A DNA stretch of 39,441 nt from an uncultured bacterium (lineage in GTDB: Bacteria > Patescibacteriota > Minisyncoccia > Phycocordibacterales > GWA1-40-21), in NCBI GenBank assembly GCA_903850545.1, contig CAINLW010000013.1, forward strand, positions 1 to 39,441, in the 5' to 3' direction. Positions 4,878 through 36,856 of the stretch are shown here, piece by piece; position 1 is the stretch's first letter; the number at the start of each line of letters is the position of its first letter. Both the position numbers and the translations under genes were made by a program. The notes under the pieces are model-generated. The model searched no databases and was not told the DNA's origin. It was given only the letters and a program-made list of their open reading frames with translations.

Positions 4878-5024
4878 AATATTCTTATTTTTAAAGGTTT
4901 TTCTGCTGTTCTGAATTTATATGCTTCTGTTGAGCCATATTTCAGCATTTTCCGTCTTTTTCAGTATTTGTTAATTATACTACCCAAGAGAAAGGAGTCA
5001 ACGTAGTTATCCACAGGATAGGTG

Positions 5025-5164
5025 TTAGCTATTAGCTACTAGCTGGTAGGAAAAATAATTCTAGGAGGAATTTCCGCTTTGCGAAAATTCCTCCTAGAAT
5101 TATTTTTTTGACTTATCGCATATTTTATATTTTTTAACCCCTAAAAGCTAGTAGCTAACAGCTT
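5025..5164. repeat. TAGCTNN heptads in inverted arrangement around a long hairpin
   Basis: TTAGCTATTAGCTACTAGCTGGTAGG ... AAAAGCTAGTAGCTAACAGCT flanking hairpin 5051-5107. Confidence 0.75.
5051..5107. repeat. long perfect/near-perfect hairpin between divergent genes
   Basis: AAAAATAATTCTAGGAGGAATTT(CCGCTTTGCG)AAAATTCCTCCTAGAATTATTTTT. Confidence 0.85.
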
Positions 5165-7128: not shown

Positions 7129-7157
7129 CTTACTTGGAAGCAAGGCTTCCAAGTAAG
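7129..7157. repeat. REP-like palindrome copy 1
   Basis: CTTACTTGGAAGC-AAG-GCTTCCAAGTAAG, 13-bp perfect stem starting immediately after the uvrD stop. Confidence 0.9.
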
Positions 7158-7171
7158 ATATAATAATTACT

Positions 7172-7828
7172 ATGGGCTCTAGAAAAATTCCCTTCATAAA
7201 TAATGAGTATTATCACATCTATAACAGAGGTGTCGACAAACGAGAAACATTTTTAGATAAAAATGATTTTTTACATTTTCTTGATGGTATTAAAGAATTT
7301 AATAGACCAGAAACAATAGGTAGTCTATACGAAAACTCATTTAGAAAAAGCGAGCCTTCACTTGGAAGCAAGGCTTCCAAGTTAGTGGACATAATCGCTT
7401 TTTGTATAAACCCGAACCATTTTCATATAATTCTCAAGCAGAATTCAGACAAAGGCATAGAAAAATTTATGCAAAAATTAGGCACTAGTTATACTAAATA
7501 TTTTAATAACAAAAACAAGAGAAGCGGTGCTCTATTCCAAGACAAATTTAAAGCAAAACACATCGATAATAATGAATATCTTTTATATATTAGCGCATAT
7601 GTAAATTTAAATAACAAAATACATCACATTCCTGAAGATAAAATATATATATCTAGTATGGAAGAATATGACAAAAATATTATTGATATTTGTAATAAAG
7701 AGATAATTCTCGATCAATACAACAATAATCACGAATACATAACCACCATAAATGAACTGCTTCCAGAATTAATGAGACAGAAGTCAGAAAAAAGAGAATT
7801 GGAACAGGAATTCGGAGAAATCATATAA
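7172..7828 (+). mobile_element. REP-associated tyrosine transposase (RAYT/IS200-like Y1 transposase, Transposase_17) CDS
   Basis: NNEYYHIYNRGVDKRETF; HUH motif NPNHFHIIL; candidate catalytic Tyr in KLGTSYTKYFN; GALFQDKFKAKHI. Confidence 0.92.
7360..7382. repeat. REP-like palindrome copy 2, inside the transposase ORF
   Basis: ACTTGGAAGCAAGGCTTCCAAGT, encodes SLGSKASKL in frame. Confidence 0.95.
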
Positions 7829-17346: not shown

Positions 17347-17424
17347 TGTCTTTGCGAGCGTAGCGAAGCAATCCAGATTAAATTCAATAATAACCTAGAT
17401 TGCTTCGCTACGCTCGCAAAGACA
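17347..17424. repeat. 27-bp perfect inverted repeat, REP/BIME-like
   Basis: TGTCTTTGCGAGCGTAGCGAAGCAATC (17347-17373) vs GATTGCTTCGCTACGCTCGCAAAGACA (17398-17424). Confidence 0.9.
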
Positions 17425-17462
17425 CAAAATAAAAAGAGGTTTAGTGACTGTAAATTACTTAA

Positions 17463-17557
17463 CCCCCGTGAAATATCCGCTTACAGCGGATTCCAGCAGT
17501 AGCTGGATTTCACAGGGTGGCGATTTTTATAGTCGTTACACTTCTTAAAAATCATTC
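17463..17557 (+). promoter_or_regulatory. structured 5' leader element, copy 1 (upstream of PrgI gene)
   Basis: Outer stem CCC-GTGAAAT...ATTTCAC-GGG; inner hairpins ATCCGCT/AGCGGAT and TCCAGC/GCTGGA; then GATTTTTA...TAAAAATC; same layout as 36753-36856 on the minus strand. Confidence 0.7.
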
Positions 17558-17989
17558 ATGCAATACCAAGTTCCACAATTTATTGAAGTTGAAGATAAAA
17601 TTGTTGGTCAGCTCACACTGAAACAGTTCTTATATTTGGCTGGGGGAATAGGAGGTTCTGTTGCCCTTTTTCTGTATGTACCTTACAAGCTAGTTTCAAT
17701 CCTTCTAATCTTACCCTTAGTGGTTTTTTCTTTAGCTTTAGCTTTCTACAAAATAAACAATAAACCTTTTATAGACACCGTACAAGCATCTTTTTATTAT
17801 TTTCTCAGTGATAAATTATATCTTTGGAAAAAAGTTGACAAAAAACCAATTTCTCAAATCATAGCGCAGGCACAAGGAATAAAATCGGCTATTAATGTAC
17901 CAAAAATGTCAGACAGCAAACTTAAAGATCTAACTTGGAGCCTTGATATTAAGGAAAGTTTGAATCCAGTCACAAGGCAAGAACCGTAG
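17558..17989 (+). CDS. PrgI family protein
   Basis: MQYQVPQFIEVEDKIVGQLTLKQFLYLAGGIGGSVALFLYV...; classic PrgI N-terminus. Confidence 0.9.
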   Translation: MQYQVPQFIEVEDKIVGQLTLKQFLYLAGGIGGSVALFLYVPYKLVSILLILPLVVFSLALAFYKINNKPFIDTVQASFYYFLSDKLYLWKKVDKKPISQIIAQAQGIKSAINVPKMSDSKLKDLTWSLDIKESLNPVTRQEP

Positions 17990-18474
17990 CTTGTAGCTTC
18001 TTAGCTTTTTAGGAAATAAATATTATGCAGGAAAAAATTAATACTTATAAGGATTTGATAGTGTGGCAAAAATCAATGGTTTTGGTTACTGAAATATATA
18101 AATTAACAGAAAAAATGCCGAAGGAAGAAATTTATGGACTGACTTCCCAAATGAGAAGATCTGCTGTATCAATACCGTCAAATATTGCTGAGGGGAGACG
18201 AAGAGGTGGTAGGAATGAATACAAACAATTTCTTACAATCTCTTATGGTTCTGGGGCTGAACTTGAAACACAGATCGAATTATTAAAAAGATTACCATTT
18301 GGAAAAGATTTAAGTTATAATAATGTAGATGGGTTACTTTCTGAAGTAATGCGTATGATCAACAAAATGCTTTCTGGCCTAAGAAGCCAAAGTTAGGAAT
18401 TGGTTTAAAATTTATTAGTTTTTTAGGGAATATAATCAATACATTTCCTAAAAAGCTAAGAAGCTACAAGCTAC
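17986..18474. mobile_element. candidate mobile cassette: four-helix-bundle gene bracketed by perfect 32-bp inverted repeats
   Basis: GTAGCTTGTAGCTTCTTAGCTTTTTAGGAAAT (17986-18017) and its exact reverse complement (18443-18474) flank ORF 18025-18396. Confidence 0.55.
18025..18396 (+). CDS. four helix bundle protein (23S rRNA intervening-sequence protein S23 family), copy 1
   Basis: YKDLIVWQKSMVLVTEIYKLTEKMPKEEIYGLTSQMRRSAVSIPSNIAEGRRRG. Confidence 0.95.
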   Translation: MQEKINTYKDLIVWQKSMVLVTEIYKLTEKMPKEEIYGLTSQMRRSAVSIPSNIAEGRRRGGRNEYKQFLTISYGSGAELETQIELLKRLPFGKDLSYNNVDGLLSEVMRMINKMLSGLRSQS

Positions 18475-18489
18475 AAGCTTTAAAATACA

Positions 18490-19119
18490 ATGCCTATCAG
18501 TAAAGCAACACAGGACTTTGTTCCTATAAAAGAAATACGAGATGGAGTAATAATCTTGAAAGACGGTTCAATGAGAGCTGTTGTTATGGCTTCTTCTGTA
18601 AACTTTGCCCTTAAATCTCCTGATGAACAACAGGGTATAATAATGCAGTTTCAAAATTTTCTTAATGGATTAGATTTTTCAATACAAATTTCTGTACAAT
18701 CAAAAAAACTCGACATTAGACCATATATTGCTATGCTCGAAGAAAGATTTAAAAACGAAACTGGAGATCTTATGAAAATACAAATTAAAGAATACATCCA
18801 GTTCATCAGAAACTTTGTTGATCAGACAAGTATTATGACAAAAACATTTTTTGTTATTGTTCCTTTCTCTCCAACAATTATTAATTCCTCCAACAATCCT
18901 TTTAGCCAAATGGTAAACAAAACACCAGAGGAAAACCCTAATAAAAATACCCATTTTGATGAAAATAGAACTCAGTTGGAGCAGAGAATAGGTTCAATCT
19001 CACAAGGTTTATCAAGATGTGGAATAAAAACAATACAACTGGGAACTGAAGAGGTTGTTGAATTATTTTATAAGATATTTAACCCGGGAGACATGGAGAA
19101 ACCGATTATTCCGAATTAG
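18490..19119 (+). CDS. TraC/VirB4 N-terminal-domain-like protein
   Basis: MPISKATQDFVPIKEIRDGVIILKDGSMRAVVMASSVNFALKSPDEQQGI...; upstream of VirB4. Confidence 0.75.
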   Translation: MPISKATQDFVPIKEIRDGVIILKDGSMRAVVMASSVNFALKSPDEQQGIIMQFQNFLNGLDFSIQISVQSKKLDIRPYIAMLEERFKNETGDLMKIQIKEYIQFIRNFVDQTSIMTKTFFVIVPFSPTIINSSNNPFSQMVNKTPEENPNKNTHFDENRTQLEQRIGSISQGLSRCGIKTIQLGTEEVVELFYKIFNPGDMEKPIIPN

Positions 19120-19164
19120 CTGTCAGCTATTAGCTACTAGCTTTTAGAAAATACAATCAAAAAA

Positions 19165-19545
19165 ATGCTGGAAAAAATTAATTCTTATAGAGATCTTATA
19201 GTGTGGGAAAAAGCTATCAATTTAACTGTGGAAATATATAAAATTACAGAAAATTTCCCAAAAGAAGAAATTTATGGACTTACTTCTCAAATGAGAAGAT
19301 CCGCTGTATCTATACCATCAAATATCGCTGAAGGTAGAAATAGAGGAACCAGAAAAGATTTTTGTAATTTTTTACGAATAGCTTTAGGCTCATGCGCGGA
19401 ATTGTCAACCCAAATAGAAATAGCCAAAAAATTATCAAAGCCTACCTTGTTAAATTACAAAAATGCAGAATCAGTTCTTACAGAAATAATGAAAATGTTA
19501 TATACTATGATTAAGAACTTAAATGTTCAAAAAAACAATAATTAA
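19165..19545 (+). CDS. four helix bundle protein (S23 family), copy 2
   Basis: YRDLIVWEKAINLTVEIYKITENFPKEEIYGLTSQMRRSAVSIPSNIAEGRNRG; paralogous to copy 1. Confidence 0.95.
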   Translation: MLEKINSYRDLIVWEKAINLTVEIYKITENFPKEEIYGLTSQMRRSAVSIPSNIAEGRNRGTRKDFCNFLRIALGSCAELSTQIEIAKKLSKPTLLNYKNAESVLTEIMKMLYTMIKNLNVQKNNN

Positions 19546-19609: not shown

Positions 19610-21427
19610 ATGGGAATATTTGATTTTTTTAAAACAAAAAAGAACGACGAGCAACTAACTTCATTCTTACCACAAGAAATATATGAGGCTGGAGTTTTGG
19701 AATTACAAGACATTATTGCTCCTTCCGCATTAAAAATTTCACCAAAACAATTAAATTTGGGGGAAAAAATAGCTAGATCTTTTTTTGTTATTTCATATCC
19801 AAGGTTTTTGTCAGAAAGTTGGTTTTCTCCCATTATAAATTTGGATAAGGTTTTTAATATTTCTATTTTTATTCATCCTATTGATACAGCAAAAGTTCTT
19901 CGACAGTTTCAAAAAAAGGTTGCTGAGGTTCAAAGCCAAATCAACACGAGAGAGAAAAAGGGGTTAGTTAGAGACCCAATGCTTGATACTGCTTATCAAG
20001 ATTTGGAATCACTTAGAGACAATCTAATGCAGGCTCAAGAAAAACTTTTTGATGTCGGACTTTATTTGACTTTGTATGGCGATACTGAAGACGAACTCGA
20101 TAAAATTGAATCAGAAATAAAATCAATCCTCGAATCAAAGATGATTTATATTAAACCTGCACTTTTTCAACAAGAACAAGGATTTAAGAGTATACTACCA
20201 ATTGCAACAGACCTCCTTGAGGTTCACTCGAAACTTAATTCTGCACCATTATCAAGTATTTTTCCTTTTGTTTCTTTCGACTTAACCTCAGACAAGGGAA
20301 TTCTCTATGGTATCAATAGACATAATGCCAGTTTAGTTATTTTTGACAGATTTTCTCTCGAAAACTATAATTCGGTCACTTTTGCAAAATCTGGTTCTGG
20401 TAAATCATATTGTACAAAACTAGAAATTTTAAGAAGTCTTATGTTTGATACTGATGTTATTGTTATCGACCCTGAAAAAGAATATCAATTCCTTGCAGAG
20501 GCAACTGGTGGAAAATCTTTTGATATTTCTTTGAATTCTACTAGCCACATTAATCCTTTTGACTTACCTGTACCTGGGGAAGATGAGTCTCCGGCAGATG
20601 TTTTGAGAAGTAATATTATAAATCTTGTCGGCCTTTTTAGAATAATGCTTGGGGGACTAACTCCGGAAGAAGATGCGATCATTGATAGAGCTATTTCTGA
20701 AACTTACGCACTTAAAGATATTACTGCGGATTCTGATTTTGCAAATGTGGAACCTCCACTTCTTTCAGATTTTGAGCTTGTTCTTTCCGGAATGAAAGGG
20801 GCTGAGTCTATTGTTCAAAGGCTTTCTAAATATACTAGAGGAACCTGGGCAGGTTTTTTGAACAAACCTACAAACATAAACATAAACTACAAATTCATCG
20901 TTTTCTCGATAAGAGATATGGAGGAGGAATTAAAAACAGTTGCAATGTATATTATCACTCACTATATATGGAACGCTGTTAAAAGAAACAGGAAAAAGAG
21001 ACTTTTGGTAGTAGATGAGGCATGGATTATGATGAAATCTGATGATGCAGCTTCATTCTTGTTTGGAATGGCAAAAAGAGGAAGAAAATATTTCTTGGGT
21101 CTTTCAACGATTACACAAGATGTCGAAGATTTTATGAAGTCTCCATATGGTTTGCCTATTGTTACTAACTCTTCAATGCTTGTTCTTCTAAAACAATCTC
21201 CAACTGTTATAGATAATCTTCAAAAAGTTTTTAATCTTACCGAGGAAGAAAAATATCTTCTACTTGAGTCAAATGTAGGTGAGGGAATGTTCTTTGTTGG
21301 CCAAAAACATGTCGCAATCAAGATTATAGCTTCCTATACTGAAGACCAGATTATCACTTCAGATCCTTCTCAACTTTTAAATATCAGAAGAGCAAAAGAA
21401 GAATTAAAAATGTCACAGGGGTTGTAA
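19610..21427 (+). CDS. virB4: VirB4-type secretion/conjugation ATPase
   Basis: Walker A AKSGSGKSYCTKLEIL, DVIVIDPEKEYQFLAEATGG, RLLVVDEAWIMMKSDDAASFLFGMAKRGRKYFLGLSTITQDVEDF. Confidence 0.93.
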   Translation: MGIFDFFKTKKNDEQLTSFLPQEIYEAGVLELQDIIAPSALKISPKQLNLGEKIARSFFVISYPRFLSESWFSPIINLDKVFNISIFIHPIDTAKVLRQFQKKVAEVQSQINTREKKGLVRDPMLDTAYQDLESLRDNLMQAQEKLFDVGLYLTLYGDTEDELDKIESEIKSILESKMIYIKPALFQQEQGFKSILPIATDLLEVHSKLNSAPLSSIFPFVSFDLTSDKGILYGINRHNASLVIFDRFSLENYNSVTFAKSGSGKSYCTKLEILRSLMFDTDVIVIDPEKEYQFLAEATGGKSFDISLNSTSHINPFDLPVPGEDESPADVLRSNIINLVGLFRIMLGGLTPEEDAIIDRAISETYALKDITADSDFANVEPPLLSDFELVLSGMKGAESIVQRLSKYTRGTWAGFLNKPTNININYKFIVFSIRDMEEELKTVAMYIITHYIWNAVKRNRKKRLLVVDEAWIMMKSDDAASFLFGMAKRGRKYFLGLSTITQDVEDFMKSPYGLPIVTNSSMLVLLKQSPTVIDNLQKVFNLTEEEKYLLLESNVGEGMFFVGQKHVAIKIIASYTEDQIITSDPSQLLNIRRAKEELKMSQGL

Positions 21428-21429
21428 AA

Positions 21430-21500
21430 TGGCTTTTAGCTACTAGCTGTTAGCTTTTAGAAATTTTCTAACAGCTAGAAGCTAGCACCTAACAGCTAAT
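21430..21500. repeat. TAGCT heptad inverted pair
   Basis: TTTTAGCTACTAGCTGTTAGCTTTTAGAAATTTTCTAACAGCTAGAAGCTAGCACCTAACAGCTAA. Confidence 0.8.
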
Positions 21501-24475: not shown

Positions 24476-25726
24476 ATGTCAAAAAACACTTCAATCTTAA
24501 TAATTATTGGTACATTTCTCCTCATTGTTGGAGGTCTGATTTTCTTCTATGTTTCTTCAAATAATTCTGGAAATATTTCTCCAACAACACAAGCAACTTC
24601 AAGTCCTTTTGGGGACAATTCGGGAGACAGAACCATTGATACAAATACTCAAACGACAGATTTTATAAATAAAAACAATAACATAAAAAAAGATCAGTTA
24701 ATTCAACTTTATAAAAATCCAACTTCTGGTTCTGTCTTTGTAACTAATAAAAACAACAAAACAGTTGTTAAATTTGTAGATAGAGCTGTTGGAAACATTT
24801 ATCAATATGTCCCTGGTATAGAAAATGGGGAAGTAACGAGAATTACAAACACAACGATCCCTAAAATTCAAGAAACTGTTTGGTCAAGCACTGGTGAAAA
24901 TTTAATTTTGAGATATTTAGATAATGATACTGATGATATTGTGAGTTTTTCTTCAAAAATAAAACTAGACGCAAGCTCAACTGATCGAGTGGGAGAAATT
25001 ACTGGTTCCTTTTTATCATTAAAAAACATTAAACAATTGGTCATAAGCCCAAAAGGAGATAAAATTTTTGGTTTAGTTGATAAAAGTGATAAGTCTGGTA
25101 CATTTGGCTTCATTGCAAATCTTGATGGTAGTAATAAAAAAACCGTTCTCGATTCGCCCATAACTTATTGGAATGTTGCTTGGCCAAAAGAAAGTGTAAT
25201 TACTCTTACAACAAAGCCAAACTATATGGATTCTGGTTTATTATTCTTTTTTAATCCTCAAACGTCTGTAATGGAAAGAATGTTAGGAAATGTCATCGGA
25301 ATGTCCATCTTAACAAACAAAGATGCTAATTTGGTAGCTTATTCATACAGTAACAATAGCTCATTGAGTCTAGATGTTTACGATACTATTAATAAAATCA
25401 ATAAAAATATTAAAATTCAAACATTAGCAGATAAATGTGTTTGGGGAAATAATAATAGTAAGATTTTATATTGTGCTGTTCCAAAAACTGTTTCTTCCGG
25501 TAATTATCCAGACGTCTGGTATCAAGGCTTGACCTCTTTTGAAGATGATTTTTGGAAAATAGACACAGAAAGTGGAAAAACTGAACTAGTATACCAAATC
25601 GATCCAAGCGAAAATATCAACGTAGATGCTTTTGGTTTGACAATAAGTTTAGACGACCAATATCTATCTTTTACAAACAAAAACGACTTGAGTTTATGGC
25701 TTTTAAAATTAGCTGATAGCTTTTAG
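24476..25726 (+). CDS. membrane-anchored beta-propeller-like (TolB/WD40-like) protein
   Basis: N-terminal TM; repeated ENLILRYLDND, ISPKGDKIFGLVDKSDKSGTFGFIANLDGSN, ISLDDQYLSFTN. Confidence 0.65.
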   Translation: MSKNTSILIIIGTFLLIVGGLIFFYVSSNNSGNISPTTQATSSPFGDNSGDRTIDTNTQTTDFINKNNNIKKDQLIQLYKNPTSGSVFVTNKNNKTVVKFVDRAVGNIYQYVPGIENGEVTRITNTTIPKIQETVWSSTGENLILRYLDNDTDDIVSFSSKIKLDASSTDRVGEITGSFLSLKNIKQLVISPKGDKIFGLVDKSDKSGTFGFIANLDGSNKKTVLDSPITYWNVAWPKESVITLTTKPNYMDSGLLFFFNPQTSVMERMLGNVIGMSILTNKDANLVAYSYSNNSSLSLDVYDTINKINKNIKIQTLADKCVWGNNNSKILYCAVPKTVSSGNYPDVWYQGLTSFEDDFWKIDTESGKTELVYQIDPSENINVDAFGLTISLDDQYLSFTNKNDLSLWLLKLADSF

Positions 25727-25835
25727 CTACTAGCTGTTAGAAAATACAAAATAAAAAAACGGCATCCGCCGTTTTTTTTATTTGTTTTTGTATTGTTTAA
25801 AAACTAACACCTAACAGCTAATAGCTACAAGCTAG
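25710..25835. repeat. TAGCT heptads - terminator - inverted heptads
   Basis: TAGCTGATAGCTTTTAGCTACTAGCTGTTAG (25710-25740) / CTAACACCTAACAGCTAATAGCTACAAGCTAG (25804-25835). Confidence 0.85.
25754..25778. terminator. bidirectional terminator
   Basis: AAAAAACGGC-ATCC-GCCGTTTTTTTT. Confidence 0.9.
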
Positions 25836-27189: not shown

Positions 27190-27528
27190 TTAAATAATAA
27201 TTTTATTTAACACAAAACCTACATCTTTTTTAACTTCATTATAATCAAGAGGCAGGTTTGTTTTTTTTAATAGAAAAACAACGGTTTTTTTGAATTTTGG
27301 ATCTAATTTATTAAGTTTTTCCTCTATATAACTACTTATTTTCCTTTTTATGTTGTGCCTTCCGACAGATGTTTTCTCGTTTTTTTTAGAAACAATGATA
27401 GCAAAACTTGGTTTTTTACTCTCTTTTTTAGAAATTTTTGCGTATAAAAACATTCCGTGTATAGAAATCCCGGTTTTAATGGTTTCTTCAATATCAATTC
27501 TGTTTGCCCTATATTTACGATTTAACAT
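27190..27528 (-). CDS. rnpA: ribonuclease P protein component
   Basis: SFAIIVSKKNEKTSVGRHNIKRKISSYIEE; genomic context rpmH-rnpA-yidC. Confidence 0.88.
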   Translation of the reverse strand: MLNRKYRANRIDIEETIKTGISIHGMFLYAKISKKESKKPSFAIIVSKKNEKTSVGRHNIKRKISSYIEEKLNKLDPKFKKTVVFLLKKTNLPLDYNEVKKDVGFVLNKIII

Positions 27529-27529
27529 A

Positions 27530-27592
27530 ATATGCGAATGTTATGCGAATTTTACGAATGAATTACGAATATTACCCGAATGATACAAATAA
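27530..27592 (+). repeat. CGAAT-family repeat between rnpA and rpmH
   Basis: TGCGAATGTTATGCGAATTTTACGAATGAATTACGAATATTACCCGAATGATACAAAT. Confidence 0.8.
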
Positions 27593-30704: not shown

Positions 30705-30827
30705 ACATACGAATATTACTCGAATGATACGAATGGCTACGAATAAGAAATTAAATTTAATTTATTCGTAACATTCGCATAATATTCGTACTTCATTCGT
30801 AAAATTCGCATAACATTCGTATAATAC
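30705..30827. repeat. CGAAT-family inverted pair
   Basis: ACGAATATTACTCGAATGATACGAATGGCTACGAAT ... ATTCGTAACATTCGCATAATATTCGTACTTCATTCGTAAAATTCGCATAACATTCGTATAAT. Confidence 0.85.
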
Positions 30828-35963: not shown

Positions 35964-36111
35964 TGATTTTGCGAAATCACGTCGCGCAACTGTCGTTTAA
36001 GCGTGACGAAACTTTTGTTAATAAATTGCTCTTTTTGAGCTAATACTTGTATTTTCCAAGATTTTAAAAAAAAAGCAACTAGTCCAACCTGTGGACAACT
36101 CCATAATAGGT

Positions 36112-36220
36112 TTTAGCTACTAGCTGTTAGTTTTTAGGAAACTCAAAACAGAGAAAAAATAACAAGTTTTTATTATTTAATGTTTTCTAACAGCTAAAGG
36201 CTAACACCCAACAGCTAGTA
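36112..36220. repeat. TAGCT heptad inverted pair
   Basis: TTTTAGCTACTAGCTGTTAGTTTTTAGGAAACTCA ... TTTTCTAACAGCTAAAGGCTAACACCCAACAGCTAGTAG. Confidence 0.8.
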
Positions 36221-36221
36221 G

Positions 36222-36752
36222 TTATTCCGCATTTGTATAAACATCCTGCACATCATCATTGTTTTCAAGATCTTCAATAAGTTTTTCAAGTCCAGGAGTA
36301 TCTTCTTCAGAAACAGGGACCATTGTTTTTGGAACCCAGCCTTCTACCGTTCTTTCAAATGCCCAGCTTGCGCTACCTGAGCTTGCAAGGGATGTATTGT
36401 TTAAGGATAAAATATGCTTAATTTCAGCGGCAGCTCTATTTTTATTTGAGGTTAATCCTTCAATGATAATAGCAACTCCACCTGGACCATAAGCTTCGTA
36501 AGTAACCTCTTCCATTTGTTCTGCTCCAACACCTACAGCTTTTTTAATTGCTCTTTCAATATTATCGCTCGGCATATCTACAGATTTTGCTTTTTCAATT
36601 GCAGATTTTAAACCTGGTGAAGTCATGTTGCCGTTAGCTTTCTTCGCCTCCATTTGTAACATTTTTGCCATTTTGGTAAAAACCGAGCTTTTTTGTGCAT
36701 CAGTCTTTTCTTTAAGTCGCTTTATTTTTGAAAATTTATTGTGTCCGGACAT
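36222..36752 (-). CDS. yebC: YebC/PmpR family protein, shortened (176 aa)
   Basis: MSGHNKFSKIKRLKEKTDAQKSSVFTKMAKMLQMEAKK...YEAYGPGGVAIIIEGLTSNKNRAAAEIKHIL...NNDDVQDVYTNAE. Confidence 0.93.
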   Translation of the reverse strand: MSGHNKFSKIKRLKEKTDAQKSSVFTKMAKMLQMEAKKANGNMTSPGLKSAIEKAKSVDMPSDNIERAIKKAVGVGAEQMEEVTYEAYGPGGVAIIIEGLTSNKNRAAAEIKHILSLNNTSLASSGSASWAFERTVEGWVPKTMVPVSEEDTPGLEKLIEDLENNDDVQDVYTNAE

Positions 36753-36856
36753 GGTTGATTTTTAAGGAGTGAAGCGACTATAAAAATCACCACCCCGTGA
36801 AATATTTTGCTTCAGCAAAATCAAATCGTGGAAGATTTATATTTCACTGGGGTTAT
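36753..36856 (-). promoter_or_regulatory. structured 5' leader element, copy 2 (upstream of yebC)
   Basis: Minus strand: AACCCCAGTGAAAT...(GATTT/AAATC)(ATTTTGC/GCAAAAT)...ATTTCACGGGGTGGTGATTTTTATAGTCGCTTCACTCCTTAAAAATCAACC-ATG. Confidence 0.7.

Follow-up and report, generated by a model that had tools for sequence, protein, structure and literature searches.

A dispersed palindromic unit before the start codons of prgI, yebC and other genes in a genome of Paceibacteria

Two apparently unrelated genes, prgI and yebC, are preceded by similar multi-hairpin leaders in a stretch of 39,441 nucleotides (hereafter, the window) of contig CAINLW010000013.1 from an uncultured bacterium. Are these leaders a regulatory RNA or copies of a mobile element? 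Both possibilities were raised in the preliminary description. The sequence of both copies was re-read and agreed with that description, including the 43 nt between GGGTGG and the ATG at each gene. The downstream genes were identified correctly according to Pfam: prgI occupies 17558..17989 of the plus strand with its ATG at 17558 (PF12666, E 2.8e-08), and yebC occupies 36222..36752 of the minus strand with its ATG at 36752 (PF01709 and PF20772). The two copies form a 54-nt inverted match of 87% identity and fold better than shuffled sequences (z -4.7 for prgI and -3.7 for yebC; none of 200 shuffles was equally good).

Each leader is composed of a central palindrome, P1, and a hairpin, H2, which abuts the start codon. 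In the prgI copy (plus strand), P1 is located at 17462..17518 (ACCCC...GTGAAAT / ATTTCAC...GGGT) and carries two inner hairpins, 17475-17491 and 17492-17507; it was recognised by sequence, fold and covariation in 121 distinct rows. H2 follows at 17519..17557 with the stem GATTTTTA/TAAAAATC around the core TC-GT-TAC-AC-TT. A probable, degenerate third hairpin, H0, was found by eye at 17440..17461 of the same strand from a weak resemblance (GTTTAGTGACTGTAAATTACTTA versus GCGACTATAATTTTCTTAACC of better-preserved units). In the yebC copy (minus strand), P1 at 36792..36853, likewise recognised by sequence, fold and covariation, has two inner hairpins of other sequence than those of prgI, and H2 at 36753..36791 reads GGT-GATTTTTA ... 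TAAAAATC-A-ACC. The inner hairpins therefore do differ between the two genes, as first noticed, but they are modules, and the TCCAGCAGTAGCTGGA hairpin of prgI recurs in the mutM, ftsX and pilB copies. The stem GATTTTTA/TAAAAATC, described earlier as identical in both copies, exists; its sequence is not fixed, since it extends outward and covaries.

Initially regarded as a two-copy feature, the leader is in fact repeated many times in this genome. A 20-base pattern search gave ten matches, nine of them genuine, while the covariance model R1 found 19 copies at E<=1e-5 and 31 at E<=0.01, the weakest matches being mostly P1 palindromes without H2. The census covered 354 kb of this genome (G000), biased to contigs with matches, and 340 kb of a second genome, G053, chosen regardless of matches. 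Strong copies abut the start codons of yebC, prgI, mutM, uL10, uL11, priA, ftsE, ftsX, nusA, mreB and ppdK, and further copies precede the genes of an NYN-domain protein, of an ftsA/pilM-like protein and pilB; apart from prgI and yebC, these are presumed identities, recognised from the protein starts. Characteristic protein starts, MSGHNK and MPELPEV among them, show the abutted ATG to be the true start codon. P1-type palindromes (ACCCC.GTCAAAT...ATTTGAC.GGGG) also occur in this genome without H2 and away from start codons (L069, L070, L072-L075).

Within one order of Paceibacteria the family has a patchy distribution, the covariance model matching 24 of 60 genomes, this genome included; elsewhere in the class it is rare, with two other genomes matched at a stricter E-value in a sample of about 111-112. 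Many of the named matches of the pattern scan belonged to Nomurabacteria, Taylorbacteria and Zambryskibacteria; scattered matches in other phyla may be due to chance. Six exact matches to the H2 pattern were found in viral contigs (L329-L334). A literature search found no description of such an element in CPR bacteria. A repeat family of this size is of interest in the streamlined CPR genomes, where intergenic space is scarce.

The full unit consists of three abutting hairpins, H0-P1-H2, with H0 toward the upstream gene and H2 ending on the downstream ATG. P1 (ACCCC...GGGGT) is a palindrome with a variable insert and joins H2 with zero gap; after its GGGGT, H2 reads GAT-GATTTTTA-t-AN-TC-RY-NNN-RY-TC-N'T-TAAAAATC-a-ATC, followed directly by ATG. 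In the better-preserved units, H0 lies on the opposite flank of P1 and carries the same core inverted, so that the core on the inward-reading strand is GA-RY-(GNA or GNNA loop)-RY-GA at each end. Only this core is common to H0 and H2, the stems being of the TTAGAAAAT type in H0 and of the GATGATTTT type in H2. The complete arrangement was found in 10 or so units of G053, and three abutting hairpins were predicted (DNA parameters) for the sense strand of the unit between groES and groEL. A long-range switch between H0 and H2 through complementary cores was considered and rejected, as the cores within one unit often mismatch in the examples read, for instance AC-TTC-GT versus GC-TAC-GC at bL27.

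The covariation predicted in the preliminary description was found. All 21 modelled pairs change on both sides among 121 distinct rows; double changes number 349 versus 83 in shuffles, 92.6% of the cells pair, and slid controls collapse. The alignment was fitted to the structure, which makes the pairing percentages lean high, and the contrast with the controls is large. The outer triplets of H2 covary as well: GAT/ATC in most copies, GGT/ACC at yebC, GGC/GCC at mutM and CAT/ATG at uL10 and ppdK, with GAC/GTC and AGC/GCT also present. A coding explanation, in which P1 and H2 would be translated into the conserved leader peptide GDDFYSRF-P-stop, can be practically dismissed: the frame is open in GTGAAAT-type copies such as prgI, but the explanation is refuted by in-frame TGA/TAA in the ATTTGAC and ATTTAAC families and by one-base indels in the loops.

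The adjacency of further copies to start codons was predicted as well and is equally real. Covariation and adjacency do not decide between the two readings, since compensatory changes are found in mobile REPINs too (PMC3116915). A cis-acting RNA leader would be a transcribed H0-P1-H2 or P1-H2 that controls translation of a set of housekeeping genes, either through a protein or metabolite binding to it or through cleavage close to the AUG, which would leave a leaderless mRNA. The exact spacing to the AUG, the position of the AUG within the stem at uL10 and ppdK, the strong covariation, and the fact that several targets are translation genes speak for it, as do the many copies that lie between a TATAAT promoter and the ATG. 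In several copies such TATAAT-like promoters are found some 25-60 nt upstream of P1, and the unit is therefore probably part of the 5' UTR or of intercistronic RNA. No ribosome-binding site is evident, and a hairpin that reaches the AUG would be expected to influence initiation; a transcribed unit would form a structured leader with a likely cis effect on its gene. A promoter inside H2 itself (TATART box) was rejected, as the -35-like TTGACG is at a distance of just 13 nt and ordinary TATAAT promoters precede several of the copies.

Despite these points, an RNA leader as the nature of the unit is considered unlikely. The comparison with Rfam suggested earlier was negative, and with it the riboswitch by homology was discarded: the window gave zero matches at the gathering level, and at ten element loci no match at E<=1 was obtained except miRNA-type matches to the P1 palindrome of L110, judged to be chance. 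Downstream of the uL10 copy, a sub-threshold match to the Rfam L20_leader was observed at L021:1425-1558 (31.5 bits; gathering 58.7). The patchy distribution also argues against a riboswitch or protein-binding leader common to prgI and yebC, and so does the strand on which the element folds, discussed below.

Comparison with relatives shows that the same genes can do without the element, which again disagrees with an RNA leader. It is absent at yebC of three close congeners, G002, G005 and G001, whose proteins are 77-86% identical, while it stands at the same codon in G000, G003 and at least two other families (G025, G036). In the element-free congeners, a -10 box is located about 14 nt before the yebC ATG, which suggests a short or leaderless mRNA in that state. 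In congeners, the place of the element before prgI is taken by a spacer of 25 or 4 nt or by other repeats. Identity between copies also stops at the start codon: for the ftsX, pilB and L064 copies of G000, each 9-nt block ahead of the ATG agrees at 89-100% and those beyond it at 11-67%. At the NYN-protein gene, the element is present in G000, G002 and G004, each time with different P1 and H2 sequences, and the upstream flank is the same in G000 and G002, as if cassettes had been replaced or converted. No obvious target-site duplication was seen at yebC or prgI, where the flanks have diverged. Many alike copies at unrelated genes, the end of identity at the ATG and the presence or absence at orthologues support the second of the original suggestions, a mobile element just before start codons. 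The evidence of dispersal is presence/absence polymorphism between congeners; neither an excised form nor movement was seen, which limits this reading.

On balance, the leaders of prgI and yebC are probably both copies of one dispersed DNA element, palindromic and with a REPIN/MITE-like design. The unit would spread as folded single-stranded DNA by means of some enzyme, and would persist at sites where it abuts a start codon with one end while its other end lies at, or close to, the stop codon or promoter that precedes. Docking could come from target choice or from selection. Fold-back copying between each arm and the partner that flanks it might afterwards preserve the perfect match of the arms.

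The strand that folds can be recognised from the changes that break Watson-Crick pairs in the core mini-stem. Read on the UC strand, these are A.C in 32 cases and G.T in 4 (two rows are probably non-family), and A.C on the UC strand corresponds to G.T wobbles on the GA strand. The tandem G.A also places the folded strand on the GA strand, where G..A loops occur in 87 of 113 H2 and 43 of 70 H0 hairpins and where, with DNA parameters, the fold is predicted to be more stable in 96 versus 13 cases for H2. At H2 the GA strand is the antisense and at H0 the sense strand, so that it reads inward at both ends. Tetraloops are GNNA and mostly non-GNRA (GATA, GGTA, GGCA, GACA, GTTA). In DNA both GNA and GNNA loops are stable, whereas the loops favoured by RNA are GNRA. 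The main stems contain 957 Watson-Crick pairs, 4 GT and 3 AC. These facts are explained by a symmetric folded-DNA element and not by a single regulatory transcript, for which the folding signal on the antisense strand at H2, the opposite orientation of the H0 and H2 cores and the near lack of G.U in the main stems are all unfavourable. An antisense RNA may nevertheless be the folded species at the GA strand. The counts come from related copies, which are not independent, and the bias is absent in P1 (GT 59, AC 51); both points also weaken the REPIN/MITE-like reading. It follows for similar cases that strong covariation and a fixed position before the AUG are insufficient for calling a riboswitch, and the strand bearing the wobbles should be checked.

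GNA-type loops on the GA strand and strict Watson-Crick stems would also favour the extrusion of cruciforms. Control at the DNA level, with extruded palindromes affecting transcription or supercoiling at gene junctions, would suit the placement at gene starts; it is nonetheless quite improbable, given that the distance to promoters is not constant, that some copies are internal to operons (prgI and the rplO-secY unit, for example), and that presence is patchy. A phage N4-like hairpin promoter, to which GNA loops on the template strand bear a resemblance, was considered and set aside.

A dispersed element of this kind shows an unusual precision in its placement. The catalogue of family hairpins, for which part of the seeds came from a model built on copies next to an ATG, has 183 entries: 113 (H2) terminate at an ATG beginning a long reading frame, and the other 70 (H0) do not; a core-plus-stem scan of the 340 kb of G053, independent of the model, gave the same docking pattern. 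The outer arm of H0 holds the stop codon of the upstream gene (same-strand frame of at least 60 codons) in 38 of 69 cases, compared with 3, 10 and 3 for windows shifted by 40, 80 and 120 nt. Docking as exact as this at starts and stops is not usual in a passive repeat and would be in keeping with an element that has a function, which counts against the REPIN/MITE-like reading. How a dispersed element chooses, or survives at, the start and stop codons of core genes is a testable question. H0-type hairpins apparently stand beside tRNA genes at L043:1501-1567 (beside an apparent tRNA 3' end) and L035:1501-1568. At L028 (G053:C1 about 167250-167420), a SerRS-like gene has a terminator-like hairpin and then a full H0-P1-H2 in its likely 5' UTR.

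In the unit between rplO and secY of G053, the outer arm is the end of rplO itself, and the inner arm is complementary to it. A genome of the same family without the unit has the near-identical coding end GGTTCTATAAAATAA, with one synonymous difference from G053; therefore, an arm can match host coding DNA. In the arms of the unit, past fold-back copying of coding DNA may have left a natural record. A bolder version can be offered tentatively, as a possibility that we doubt: a new class of DNA element that fits between the stop of one gene and the start of the next and builds its end hairpin with an inverted arm copied from the coding sequence beside it (a target-templated palindrome), being spread by some enzyme and possibly serving as an intercistronic regulator.

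Known systems resemble the element in part, REPINs most closely. REPINs are inverted doublets with a paired spacer and compensatory changes; a three-hairpin 'clover' fold has been discussed for them, and they are described as randomly distributed in extragenic space (PMC3116915). Two REP superfamilies with a terminal GTAG or CGTC tag are distinguished in PMC3733652. Like REPINs and BIMEs, the element is a short extragenic unit with two inverted hairpin-forming ends, a paired spacer, compensatory changes and many copies per genome. Unlike them, it has ends that share only the core, so that the H0 and H2 stems are not identical inverted repeats (a further point against the REPIN/MITE-like reading), and it is placed precisely at start codons and, in many cases, at stop codons.

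REPINs are thought to be moved by RAYTs, and Y1_Tnp genes were sought for this reason. That the units are a genuine REP/REPIN family with a Y1 (RAYT) transposase as mover could be supposed from the inverted hairpin doublet with compensatory changes, from the two Y1_Tnp genes of this genome, one of them inside the window, and from another inverted doublet, with the core GA-GC-GTA-GC-GA, in the same spacer as the prgI copy. This is very improbable, as Y1_Tnp genes do not track copy number: the two are uncorrelated in 60 genomes (Spearman 0.13, p 0.32), and no Y1_Tnp gene is present in the copy-rich G053 and G022. RAYT was on these grounds rejected as the mover of H0-P1-H2, and the lack of a linked transposase also speaks against the REPIN/MITE-like reading. 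In addition, no constant GTAG or CGTC tag was seen in the H0 and H2 lists, read by eye, and the Y1 gene in the window is flanked by a different hairpin. This RAYT-like gene (7172-7828, plus strand; domain at C13:7376-7606) is accompanied by the hairpin ACTTGGAAGCAAGGCTTCCAAGT three times, at 7132, 7360 and 7834, and is probably a REP/RAYT unit of another kind.

With identical ends, the RAYT link and the GTAG/CGTC tag all lacking, the element is REPIN-like in design but is not filed as a REPIN, and it is therefore reported as a variant of dispersed palindromic elements. It shares with bacterial MITEs the non-coding nature, terminal inverted structure, dispersal and presence or absence between relatives, and differs in having ends that are folded into hairpins and arms that are adapted; no autonomous partner was found, and no target duplication was obvious in the diverged flanks. 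Hairpins in a subterminal position, with bases left unpaired, are also typical for the ends of IS200/IS605-type elements, and the short outer pairing beside the hairpin recalls the pairing of guide and cleavage site in IS200/IS605; in the present element, by contrast, the two ends are inverted and do not share one strand orientation, and some copy-rich genomes have no Y1 gene. Ribosomal-protein leaders and riboswitches of Rfam are similar as structured sequences directly before genes such as uL10 and uL11, whereas the element stands at many unrelated genes, has no Rfam match and has its H2 folding signal on the opposite strand.

Other repeats were observed in the window. The inverted doublet at 17347-17424, in the same spacer as the prgI copy, has halves reading TTGC-GA-GC-GTA-GC-GA-A-GCAA with the common core GA-GC-GNA-GC-GA; it looks like an ordinary REPIN and is the only such pair in 354 kb. 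Two related genes of the 23S-IVP type, at 18025-18396 and 19165-19545 of the plus strand, have 72% identical DNA, and the first belongs to PF05635. It is bounded by 32-nt perfect inverted repeats (17986-18017 and 18443-18474), and together with them it recalls the intervening sequences of 23S rRNA, here outside rRNA. A 65-nt inverted pair of 89% identity lies at 27528-27592 and 30762-30826, with CGAATNNTACGAAT-type repeats around it. Dispersed AGCTAACAGCTAATAGCT-type repeats adjoin many gene ends, at 5016-5067, 19114-19165, 21427-21478, 25707-25758 and 36104-36155.
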